In this document: positions 58,944 through 62,516 of the stretch, piece by piece
Layout of the letters: every line of letters starts with the position of its first letter
How positions within the stretch are numbered: the stretch's first letter is position 1
Source of the DNA: Candidatus Accumulibacter phosphatis
GTDB lineage: Bacteria > Pseudomonadota > Gammaproteobacteria > Burkholderiales > Rhodocyclaceae
Reading direction: 5' to 3'
Length of the DNA: 64,000 bases
Assembly (NCBI RefSeq): GCF_012939955.1
Contig: NZ_SPMY01000016.1
Coordinates: 1 to 64,000, forward strand
Position numbers and translations under genes: made by a program
Notes under the pieces: model-generated
What the model was told of the DNA's origin: nothing
Database searches by the model: none
Seen by the model: the letters and a program-made list of their open reading frames with translations, nothing else

Positions 58944-59987
58944 TCAAGCACCGTCTGCGAAAACGTCGTCGAGATTGGCTGCATCGAGCAGTTCAAGACC
59001 CCACCTTTCGAGCTGAGCAGGACTGGCCTGCGCCAGTCGTTCCGGCACCCAGGCCGGTAGCACCCCAAAACGGCGCGCGAGTTGTTTTTGCAGCAGGGCT
59101 GCCTCGCCCTGTTGCATGCCCTCCTGGCGACCCTCCTGGCGACCCTCCTGCAGACCCTGCTGCAGACCCTGCTGCCGCCCCTCGCGCAGGCCATCCGCTT
59201 TCCACTGCCGGGTCCATTCTTCGACGGTTTCTGCGAGCATGGTATCAATCTCCTGTAATTCCTTGACTTCGGGTATTTCCTGCCCGGGCATCAGCCGGCG
59301 AAGGACTACGCGGTTGATCCAGACGGCGAAAGCGCGGCGCAGGCTCGCGTATTGCGGCCCCCGCAAACGCTTCTGCAATAGTGAGACCGCTCGCCGCACG
59401 TCCGCTGGCGCGCGGCTAGCTTCGAGACGAATGATACCGGCGACCGTGTTCTCCGTGTCGGTCAGCTCGTCATCGCCGAGCGCCGCCTCCTCCAGCAGGA
59501 AATAACGTTGCGCCGGGTGATAAGGCTTCAGGCTGGCCGGCAAGGGCTCGATCAGTTCGCTGACTTCGCGTGCCGCGGTCCAGCGACGGCGCCCGTTGTA
59601 GAGAACGAGCGGGAAAACCGCCGGCAGCTTCTGCTGGCTGCCGATCTCGCCGCTCTTGATCAGATCCTGATACAGCAATCCGGTATAGACCATGATGCGC
59701 AAGGCCATCCACGGATCAACGCTGCTCTGGAACTCGAGCAGCAGGTACACATAGAGCCAGTCGCCGCGGTGGCGCAGGCGCCAGACGATGTCGTCCTCAC
59801 GCTCGCGCAAATCGTCGCTGACGTAACTGGCAGCGACTTTTTCGAGCGTCGCGAAGTCAAGCTCGGCGACCCAGTCCTCGGCGACGAAACCGCGCAACAG
59901 GTCTTCGACGACCTGGGCGTGCGAAAAGAGCAGCTTGTAGCCCGAGTCGTAGCTTGCGGCGGCGGGCGGTGGCGAGTCGGCAAGCAT
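58944..59987 (-). CDS. Rpn-family recombination-promoting nuclease / putative transposase (PF04754)
   Basis: 347 residues. YDSGYKLLFSHAQVVEDLLR is the family start. The PD-(D/E)xK-like core contains DLREREDDIVWRLR and LYVYLLLEFQSSVD. The C-terminal part has a run of Glu-Gly-Arg-Gln-Gln-Gly units (LREGRQQGLQQGLQEGRQ) encoded by short DNA repeats at 59122-59190, usual in Rpn/YhgA-like proteins. Such nucleases are mobile-element-like and may act in recombination or defence. The ATG at 59987 was chosen by family N-terminus. Confidence 0.82.
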   Translation of the reverse strand: MLADSPPPAAASYDSGYKLLFSHAQVVEDLLRGFVAEDWVAELDFATLEKVAASYVSDDLREREDDIVWRLRHRGDWLYVYLLLEFQSSVDPWMALRIMVYTGLLYQDLIKSGEIGSQQKLPAVFPLVLYNGRRRWTAAREVSELIEPLPASLKPYHPAQRYFLLEEAALGDDELTDTENTVAGIIRLEASRAPADVRRAVSLLQKRLRGPQYASLRRAFAVWINRVVLRRLMPGQEIPEVKELQEIDTMLAETVEEWTRQWKADGLREGRQQGLQQGLQEGRQEGRQEGMQQGEAALLQKQLARRFGVLPAWVPERLAQASPAQLERWGLELLDAANLDDVFADGA

Positions 59988-60150
59988 GGGGTCGATGGCT
60001 TCCAGGCTGGAGATCGTTGCTCGTGCGAATGCGCTTCGACGTACATTCTCGCACAGCGAGCCACTTTGGGGCAGCCACGGTAACGATGGCAGACAATGCG
60101 CCGCCAGGCGCGGTCGCCACCGGCGACCACCTGCCGAAAATGGTTTTCGG

Positions 60151-60272
60151 CTAACGGTCATGACAATCGAGACACCCCAGATCATGAAAGTCATGACCGT
60201 TTTCCCCTCTTCCCCGACCCTTATCCCGCGAGGAGAGAATGGAGATTCGTGAGTCGCTTGCGCGACATTTAC
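60151..60272. repeat. Dispersed repeat copy (A-B, reverse orientation) forming the 5' end of the STAND gene
   Basis: TAACGGTCATGACAATCGAG begins module A; module B follows and runs into the STAND gene. The segment GGAGATTCGTGAGTCGCTTG supplies a ribosome site (GGAG) and the GTG start at 60249. After about 60270 the sequence departs from the other copies. Confidence 0.85.
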
Positions 60273-62221
60273 GATTCGATAGACCAGAGCGGTGCGACGC
60301 GAGAGTTCACCCTGCGCTGCGTCCGTAATCTGCTCGAACGCGGCTTCGCCGGCTCGCGGCATTCGTTGTGCTGCTGCTGGAGGTCGTGCAGCGCGATGCC
60401 GGCGACGAGAAACACGCGGACTACGGCGCACTCGTTCGCGCGCTCGACGCGCTCAGCGAGCGCCCGCCCGACGCCGACTGCCCCTACCGCGACCTGCGCG
60501 CTTTCCGCGAAGAAGACCAGCCGCTCTTCTTCGGCCGCGACGCGTTCACCAGCGAACTCGCCGCCGCCGTCGTCGGCGCTTCGGGCAGCGGCAAGTCGTC
60601 GGTGGTGCAGGCCGGGCTGATCCCGGTGCTGCGCGCTCGCGGTGGCTGGGCGGTGGGCATCTTGCGGCCCGGTCGCGAACCCTGGCGCAGCCTCGCCGCC
60701 TGCCTTCTCGAACTGATCGAAGGCGAGCCAACCGCCGACGAGCGCGTCAAACGGGTGATCGCCACGGGCGAACTAGCCGCCAGGCTTGCCGATGTCGGCG
60801 ACCAGCCGCTGCTCGAATTCTGCCTGACGCAACTGTACGCCCGCAGTCGGGACGGCACCCTGTGCCAGGCCGCTTTCGAAGCCATCGGCGGCGTCCGCGG
60901 CGCCATCGTGCAACGTGCCGACAGCGTCATCGACGCCATGGAGAGCGAGCATCCAGGCCGCGCGGCGATGGCCCGCGACATCTTCCTGCAACTCGTGCAG
61001 CTCGGCGAAGGCAGCGAGGACACCCGCCGACGCGCGCCGCTAGTCGACTTCGACGATGTAGCGCGCGCGCTGATCGGTGAGTTGGCGACCGCCCGTCTGC
61101 TGGTCACCGGCCGCGACCCTGGCAGCGCAACGGAGACCGTCGAGGTCGCCCACGAAGCGCTGATCCGCAACTGGCACCGCCTGCACCAGTGGCTGCAGGA
61201 AGACCGCACCGATCTGCACCAGCGACGCGAAATCGGACGTGCCACCCTGGCCTGGCGGGCGCACGGCGACAGTTATCGCTGGCCCGACGAGCGGGTGATT
61301 CGCGAAACCGCGCCGATGCTGCAGCGCCTCGGATCGCGCTTCGAGCTGAACGACGTCGAGCGCGATTTCCTCGGCCCGCTCGCCGCCGACGCAATGCTCG
61401 CGCTGCTCGACGAGGCCTCCACCCCGCAGGCCTTGCGCGCGCAGATCGGCGACCGCCTGGCGCTGCTCGCCCGCGGCCACCCGCGCCCCGGCGTAGGCGT
61501 CGGTGCCGACGGCCTGCCGGAGATCGCCTGGCACGCGATTCCGGGCGGCGAGGTCGAACTGGACATCGACGCCACTGGCCTGTGGAAGCGCTGGCGCGGT
61601 CGGCCGCGCTTCCAGGTTGCGCCTTTCCACATCGCCCGTCATCCGCTGACGATCGCCCAGTGGCGCGTCTTTCTCGAAGCCGCCGACGGCTACGACGAAC
61701 TGCTGCGCAAGGTTTACAGCTGGCTGCCAGCGTTTCAGCGCGGCAGCGACAACCAGCCGGCGGGGAATGTCACCTGGATCGAAGCAATGGCTTACTGCCA
61801 GTGGCTTTCTGTGACGCTTGGTTTTCCCGTCCGCTTGCCGACCGAGTGGGAGTGGCAGCAGGCGGCGACCGGCGGCGACCCGCGCAGCGAGTTTCCCTGG
61901 GGCGAGTGGCAGGAAGGACGGGCCAACACGGTCGACAGCGAATTGGGCCGGATGACTGCCGTCGGCCTATATCCGCAGGGAGCAAGCGCCCAGGGTGTGC
62001 TGGACCTTACCGGCAATACCTGGGACTGGTGTCTCAACAAGTTCGATACGCCGAGCGATGCGACACTGGCTGTTGACGCCCGGCGCGTGGTTCGCGGCGG
62101 CTCGTGCGGTGGCGATCGTCACCACGCGCGTTGCGCCTCCCGCAACGTCGTCGCTCGCGACTACCGCGGCGGCGATCTCGGCTTTCGGGTGTTGTGTGTT
62201 TCCCCCATCCCGAAGCGCTGA
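60249..62221 (+). pseudogene. STAND-type NTPase fused to FGE/C-type-lectin domain with DGR-like variable C-terminus (frameshifted, Walker B missing)
   Basis: Frame 1 from GTG 60249 reads SRLRDIYDSIDQSGATREFT, then LRCVRNLLERGFAGS, a small helical effector-associated-like domain. After one lost base near 60355 the next frame continues AFVVLLLEVVQRDAGDEKHA. The nSTAND NTPase has Walker A GASGSGKSS (60575-60601) and PGREPWRSLAACLL, but then passes directly to ADVGDQPLLEFCLTQLYARS. The Walker B/sensor section (DQFEE and about 150-200 residues) is absent. The helical part RRAPLVDFDDVARALIGELA follows. From about 61540 an FGE-sulfatase fold runs to the end (RLPTEWEWQQAATGG, GNTWDWCLN, GFRVLCVS). 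Codons 62105-62176 match a DGR variable region. It probably binds a variable ligand; NTPase function is doubtful. Confidence 0.75.
62096..62191 (+). other. Candidate DGR variable region
   Basis: Frame RGGS-CGG-DR-HH-AR-C-A-S-RN-VV-ARD-Y-R-GG-D-L-GFRV. In related DGR targets most of these sites are Asn. Here the substituted codons (TGC, GGT, GGC, GAT, CAC, CAC, TGC, TCC, GTC, GTC, TAC, GGC, GGC, GAT) all end in a pyrimidine, as expected if template AAY or AGC codons lost only their adenines. The constant positions (R, A, N, L, GFR) sit between them. Confidence 0.65.
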
Positions 62222-62312
62222 GCACCGCAGCTCTGATCTCTGTCAACTCTGTTTCGCTGACCCTCTGGAACATCGCGCAGCGACGTTCTGCGGGGCGCGC
62301 AGCGCCCCGCGC

Positions 62313-62516
62313 CTATGCCGTCGGATAGCCGGCCTGCTCGATGATCTCGCGGATGTCGCTCTCACTCACCATTGCCGTGTGCTCGATGACCGCCTCGCCG
62401 CTTGCCAGCGAGACCTCGACGTGGCCGATACATGGCAGATCCTGGATCGCATTCATCACCAGGCGCAGGCAGTCGTCGGATTTCATTCCGGTGACTTTCA
62501 GGGTAGTGGTCGGCAT
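62313..62516 (-). CDS. Heavy-metal-associated (HMA) domain protein lacking the first metal Cys
   Basis: 67 residues with the ferredoxin-like fold of CopZ/Atx1 copper chaperones. The usual GMTCxxC reads GMKSDDCLRLV here: the first Cys is Ser, only the second remains. IGHVEVSLASGEAVIEH and IREIIEQAGYPTA fit the family closely. GAGGAG precedes the ATG at 62516. Metal binding by the usual two-Cys site is not possible alone; a dimeric or non-metal role may apply. Convergent with the STAND gene. Confidence 0.8.
   Translation of the reverse strand: MPTTTLKVTGMKSDDCLRLVMNAIQDLPCIGHVEVSLASGEAVIEHTAMVSESDIREIIEQAGYPTA

Follow-up and report, generated by a model that had tools for sequence, protein, structure and literature searches.

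A gene end in a Candidatus Accumulibacter genome raises the question of whether it is a genuine variable region (VR) of a diversity-generating retroelement (DGR) and, if so, whether it is still being rewritten or has outlived the machinery that wrote it. The window, a stretch of 64,000 nucleotides, is part of contig C16 of a draft genome (G000; 5.04 Mb, 149 contigs, 97% complete, 5% contamination) from a wastewater bacterium. A sequence-only reading had proposed that a STAND-FGE protein ends here in a DGR variable region and had stated that the window holds neither a reverse transcriptase (RT) nor a template repeat (TR). The latter is borne out by a search with an RT profile and by a query with the TR of a relative (G018), which matches nothing in the window except the VR itself. 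When 28 genomes of the genus, G000 among them, were searched at the DNA level, the FGE end proved to have orthologues, and the VR by itself gave numerous short matches in clusters.

Profile searches with the window protein identified an FGE-sulfatase domain (PF03781, E 3.9e-35) and, in two pieces, an nSTAND1 domain (PF20703, E 5.5e-63). The FGE part matches 28 distinct solved sequences, including formylglycine-generating enzymes and Treponema denticola variable protein 1 (2y3c), and the protein is predicted to end in a C-type-lectin/FGE fold, as expected of a DGR target. The orthologue in Ca. A. meliphilus UW-LDO-IC (G009) is a complete EAD8-nSTAND1-FGE protein of 830 amino acids, with EAD8 (PF19961) at E 2.3e-10 and nSTAND1 covering profile positions 1-376 of 379. 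Compared with G009, the window gene has no start region, a shortened and out-of-frame N-terminal EAD8 part and, within the NTPase part, alignment gaps of 24 bp and of a net 411 bp that reflect deletions. As computed from the alignments, these remove about 145 of the 408 nSTAND1-matched residues of G009, roughly one-third of the NTPase domain, and the longer deletion takes out a stretch bearing what we take to be a Walker B-like motif. The window gene does not encode the intact P-loop NTPase domain of a STAND sensor; intact copies of it are present in relatives. Beyond the point where similarity to G009 ends (Table 1), G009 carries a second target gene, EAD8-TIR-NACHT-FGE, that is absent from the window. 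The window protein has no PADLOC match, and two G009 proteins give weak partial PADLOC matches only. Two further features were noted in the same comparison. A Transposase_31/DUF4351 gene at 58944-60431 on the minus strand contains a Gln/Arg/Gly-rich repeat that is present in a different number of copies in G009. The FGE domain has a second patch, at about 61700-61790, that diverges from G009 nearly as strongly as the VR does, by up to 20 differences per 78 nt, with no template pattern, in an alignment that left out G013 and the truncated G027 (Ca. A. vicinus UBA5574).

Table 1. Features of the VR-bearing gene and its downstream region, in window coordinates.
Feature	Coordinates	Strand	Basis
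Out-of-frame rest of the N-terminal EAD8-like region	60261..60367	+	DNA match to the G009 gene begins at 60261
EAD8-nSTAND1-FGE gene remnant, open frame of 617 codons	60368..62221	+	ORF, domain profiles, alignment with G009
Best kept nSTAND1 stretch, residues 140-301, profile 216-376 of 379	60785..61270	+	Profile search
FGE-sulfatase (C-type-lectin-like) domain, PF03781, residues 390-608	61535..62191	+	Profile search
Stretch aligned gap-free with the G018 and G011 template repeats	62081..62209	+	TR alignments
VR core, 26 codons, 24 adenine sites of the G018 template	62102..62179	+	Alignment to the G018 TR
Constant 3' part, GFRVLCVSPI, at the position of the IMH	62180..62209	+	TR/VR alignments
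First downstream hairpin, 9-bp stem, 3-nt loop, one A-C mismatch in the window copy	62268..62288	+	Stem scan, covariation
Second downstream hairpin, intact 9-bp stem, loop GCA	62290..62310	+	Stem scan, covariation
Synteny break, end of similarity to G009, two bases after the second hairpin	62312..62313	.	Alignment with G009

Nucleotides 62093-62191 read RGGSCGGDRHHARCASRNVVARDYRGGDLGFRV and form the end of the FGE-sulfatase domain. The claim that all substituted codons end in C or T is correct as to the third position, which is C or T in 14 of the 14 codons aligned to G018 template codons with an adenine at position 1 or 2, but only 13 of these codons are changed, AAC at 62144 being identical to the template. 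Because 59% of the 592 codons outside the VR also end in C or T, the chance of 14 out of 14 is near 7e-4; the argument is true but weak, suggestive rather than decisive. The cysteine at 62105, also listed in that reading, needs a correction: the template there reads TGG and the change is TGG to TGC, not at an adenine.

At the level of sequence, the decisive test of a VR is the comparison of allele with allele. For the contrast of the window with its G009 allele, the G018 TR defined 24 adenine sites and 54 other core sites. Across 702 bp at the FGE end, differences between the alleles occupy 16/24 adenine sites, 5/54 other core sites and 53/624 flank sites; the adenine sites exceed the flank with p 2e-11, whereas the other core sites do not (p 0.5). 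This agrees with the proposal of a VR at the end of a STAND-FGE protein that is changed mainly at template adenines. A control pair of FGE genes not suspected of DGR control, C49 of G000 and C2 of G009 (93% identity), differs at 1/24, 4/54 and 48/661 sites, respectively; it is a single pair, the first control query, C58 of G000, having no close orthologue in G009. The same contrast extends to eight orthologous VRs, among which adenine sites differ more than other core sites in 28 of 28 pairs. The pattern is cleanest between Ca. A. adjunctus (G003) and G013 (16/24 against 1/54) and between G006 and G003 (14/24 against 2/54), and noisier in distant pairs, where up to 17/54 other core sites differ. 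When compared with the template of G008, the orthologues of G003 and G013 show no mismatch at any of the 54 other core sites, in each case, and differ at 15/24 and 14/24 adenines.

Templates of this kind are present in relatives. Self-comparison of 19 stretches from relatives and 8 from G000 revealed TR/VR pairs at seven loci in six relatives (G004 with two, G008, G009, G011, G012 and G018), with 0.77 to 1.00 of the mismatches at TR adenines; an extra 109-bp pair in G009 with 5 mismatches (0.80) was left out of the count. The 8 stretches of G000 gave no pair, nor did 12 of the 19 from relatives. The seven loci lie near RT matches, the RT at G018:C3 being in pieces. The RT of G011 carries the motifs GNLTSQ and YVDD, which we take to be marks of DGR RTs; none of its six NCBIfam hits is named a DGR RT. 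In a census with this protein, 21 of the 28 genomes have a match at E 1e-12 or better, some of them to group II-like RTs only, below 31% identity, and 15 have a match of at least 34% over at least 250 residues. In G027, a bAvd protein adjoins a TR (Pfam 58 bits, cut-off 40; NCBIfam Avd 73.2 bits, below the cut-off of 80). In this genome, at C90 (L107, 7258-7407), the FGE end of a target gene is itself template-like, with NNN codons and an SH end and with an Avd gene nearby, and the target is apparently fused to its own TR.

Set against the TRs of relatives, the window shows an adenine excess in seven of seven cases, two of these TRs being identical over the alignment: 19-21 of 26-30 adenines differ as compared with 13-31 of 96-131 other sites (p 1e-8 to 5e-6), and one TR, for example, gives 19/28 against 15/107 (p 6e-8). 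In the reverse direction, only 2/11 window adenines differ from the G018 TR. The excess belongs to the targets and not to the templates, since in the 10 pairs that can be formed from five TRs the summed differences are 24/254 at adenines and 76/526 elsewhere, with no adenine excess. With relatives' TRs as reference, both the orthologue contrast and the seven TR comparisons place the substitutions where a DGR target should have them, confined to template adenines. The exact template of the window is not in hand, because 10/54 non-adenine core sites differ from the G018 TR, the change at 62105 included, and none of 30 TR-like sequences matches the window at all non-adenine core sites, the best having 9/51 mismatches.

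Comparison with TRs alone is not specific. Seven other FGE ends of G000 compared with nine TRs give best p values of 2e-4 to 0.06, and with the 30 TR-like sequences one of eight own FGE ends reaches 16/24 against 10/54 (p 6e-5) when set against the TR-like sequence closest to it, near the value of the window. Such ends could be VRs of an earlier date; alternatively, variation at these positions could be a property of the fold. Own FGE paralogues were rejected as clean negative controls because some may be old VRs, and the C49/G009:C2 orthologue pair was used instead. The orthologue contrast and its control are independent of this problem, except for the choice of adenine sites. The adenine-skewed ends are located at C20 (L043, 3744-3899, p 2e-4), C49 (L042, 3837-3950, p 6e-5) and C58 (L038, 4531, p 0.005 to 0.008, and 5040, p 2e-4); the two ends at C58 converge, like DGR target pairs. 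All of these are possibly older orphan VRs. For the window, the comparisons indicate that 62096-62191 is very probably a real VR of a DGR.

The sequence that follows the core differs between targets and templates. The 3' end reads SP in 8/8 orthologous VRs and SH in 5/5 TRs of this type. Two tandem hairpins follow the VR at distances of approximately 60 and 80 bases. A stem of at least 7 bp was found after 15 of 18 VRs scanned, the exceptions being G008 VR1, G006 VR2 and the G008 orthologue, and was not found downstream of the one TR scanned. From 22 VR tails we selected the 11 (10 distinct) with both hairpins, the other 11 having one hairpin, none, or being cut; in these, pairing holds in 94.3% of 175 cells, and 6 of 18 pairs are changed on both sides, as compared with at most 58.8% of cells and 2 pairs in slid controls. 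By eye, the CTCTG-rich tail and the tandem hairpins were not seen after three TRs inspected, although an inverted repeat, different in sequence, lies after the G008 TR. Phased CTCTG repeats, seen by eye at 62230-62267 between the VR and the hairpins, are common to many VR tails. A VR of another DGR type (G004:C45) has a different hairpin with a 4-nt loop. The window copy thus combines the VR-type 3' constant sequence with a downstream hairpin, as a DGR target would, and both are putative target marks. According to the accessible text of PMC3240598, the BPP-1 target has a hairpin or cruciform formed by a GC-rich inverted repeat of 7-10 bp 3' of the VR, whose stem is kept while its sequence varies, as is the case here. 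In that account, a single hairpin is needed for efficient homing of BPP-1, the phage DGRs share a 4-nt GRNA loop, and the distance to the VR is 4-34 bp (PMC3240598). By contrast, the hairpins described here are two in tandem, have 3-nt loops (GCA, GAA, TGC and others) and lie farther from the VR, which suggests a target mark different from the phage type.

None of the components of a complete DGR, that is, a DGR-type RT, a template repeat and Avd, was detected in the G000 draft. PF00078 gives four matches at three loci (C7, C21 and C82). The C7 RT was rejected as a group II intron fragment with a GIIM maturase domain, and those of C21 and C82, the latter broken, were rejected by their motifs and by the search with the G011 RT; we read the motifs of C21 as UG/DRT-like and C82 as a broken, presumably retron-like RT. 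The best match of the G011 DGR RT in G000, at E 0.15, is a group II intron fragment, and Avd (PF22296) has no match at E 1. The template that the sequence-only reading suggested might lie elsewhere in the genome was not found in this 97%-complete draft in genome-wide DNA queries with the VR and with the G018 and G008 TRs. Apart from itself, the VR best matches a remnant at C44 (74% over 83 bp) and a stretch of C20 (76% over 62 bp); the TR queries return the VR itself, the remnants at C44, 61-62 bp at C20 and matches that are short and weak. A VR without its machinery does not have to result from gaps in a draft, because the single-contig genome G013 has the orthologous VR with RT matches that are only group II-like (29% or less) and with no matching TR found.

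Contig C44 shows what may have become of the donor. In G011 and G018, two converging target genes flank the RT and TR. At C36 of G009 both VRs are kept with a 54-residue RT remnant between them. C44 is 95% identical to G009:C36 over 5.5 kb, but here the two target genes meet at inverted RRVVRGG codons, without VR cores, RT or TR, and further stretches of G009:C36 are absent as well. The fused, converging FGE genes (L039, 5440-5500) look like the scar of a deleted DGR. The junction probably arose by deletion between the inverted VR copies, and C44 would be the donor locus of the window VR on account of the TR type of G011 and G018.

We consider it highly probable that the window VR is a frozen orphan, left behind by a DGR that once diversified an EAD8-nSTAND1-FGE sensor and was then lost. 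This reading draws on the adenine-confined divergence of orthologues, the templates and RTs of relatives and their non-detection here, the C44 junction and the broken gene, all of them seen in sequence comparisons. An ancestral DGR RT would have copied a template of the type RGGSWNNN-R-NNARCAYRNNN...GFRVLCVSHI with errors at adenines, and the mutated copies would have replaced the end of the sensor gene; its target marks would have been the constant 3' part and the hairpins downstream. The RT and template would later have been lost in the G000 lineage; as a consequence, the VR would have been frozen and would drift like its flanks, and the sensor gene would have started to decay. The order of these events is the one that appears most plausible to us. 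By analogy, the putative STAND sensor would have bound a ligand and activated an effector, and its product may have sensed an invader.

An alternative is that the window VR is a remote target still diversified in trans, by a DGR missed in the assembly or confined to other members of the population. An RT or TR locus may have escaped this draft, the constant 3' part and second hairpin are intact, and the accessible text of PMC10907252 describes, for Thiohalocapsa PB-PSB1, targets served in trans as well as loci that are disrupted but have intact variants among other cells. We nevertheless regard this as improbable, since no RT, TR or Avd was found in G000, C44 is contiguous and empty, the target gene is broken, the first hairpin carries a mismatch, and G013, in a single contig, is in the same state. 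The sequence-only reading had left open whether the VR is served in trans or an orphan; the site of RT and TR in two relatives being a junction here, its second option is upheld and the first is not supported. The broken state of the gene and the two conserved hairpins beyond the VR had not figured in that reading. Equally improbable, and partly overlapping with service in trans, is that assembly errors account for the C44 junction and for the breaks in the gene, the living genome having an intact target and DGR. The several separate lesions in the gene, the other G009:C36 stretches absent from C44 and the orphan state of G013 argue against it, even though the assembly is a draft, VRs and TRs are near-identical repeats, some of them inverted, and the C44 junction could be an artefact at inverted VR copies. 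It is scarcely credible that the gene end reflects only fast-evolving loop residues under diversifying selection, without any DGR: this would suit the adenine-skewed mismatches of other own FGE ends and the divergent second patch, but not orthologue differences concentrated at template adenines with other core sites at the flank rate, two orthologues agreeing at 54/54 such sites with another genome's template, a flat control pair, and templates without adenine excess.

The frozen orphan offers a view of the end of a targeted-mutation, immune-like system, in which a hypervariable receptor is readable as a fossil after its mutator has gone. The states of the loci in Accumulibacter (RT and TR present, RT remnant, empty junction) form a natural series for dating DGR loss, which also allows one to ask whether frozen receptor alleles keep a use. 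In all eight genomes with a complete orthologous VR, no fitting TR-like copy was found among the stretches fetched from the same genome: three, including G000, gave none, and in five the best has at least 7 non-adenine core mismatches. A broader idea, which we hold to be doubtful, is that STAND-FGE targets of Accumulibacter outlive their mutators, with DGRs being gained and lost repeatedly, and that orphan VRs make up a frozen genus-wide repertoire of sensor alleles that may spread by gene exchange instead of arising afresh.

Among known proteins, the FGE part resembles Treponema denticola TvpA (PDB 2y3c), which we take to be a DGR target with this fold, by a sequence match of E 2.7e-6 in which no single stretch passes alone. 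The accessible texts of PMC10907252 and PMC3521204 already report DGRs of Accumulibacter, as well as DGRs whose targets are of the nSTAND1 or NACHT type and carry EAD8 and FGE domains. The former names Accumulibacter as having multiple related DGRs, describes DGR-diversified STAND NTPase sensors in multicellular bacteria, and reports incomplete loci with intact variants elsewhere in the population. The window locus itself was not found described in the openly accessible part of the literature on Accumulibacter DGRs, a scope that excludes subscription papers and supplements. It is new as a decayed addition to these published targets; relative to the accessible accounts, it is less ordinary that several genomes are in the orphan state and that the hairpins occur in tandem. 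In the DiGReF survey, as far as its accessible text goes (PMC3521204), Pseudogulbenkiania has DGR targets whose nearby RT is strongly mutated, and likewise a VR away from any working RT and remnants of a DGR locus, but there a second RT could serve the distal targets, whereas no DGR RT was found in G000. A further parallel is DGR 6 of Thiohalocapsa PB-PSB1, as described in the accessible text of PMC10907252: although the window genome appears to have lost the RT, TR and second target and its target gene is broken, the two systems have in common EAD8, nSTAND1 and a C-terminal FGE domain with the VR, two target genes, and a related clade with NACHT and TIR targets.
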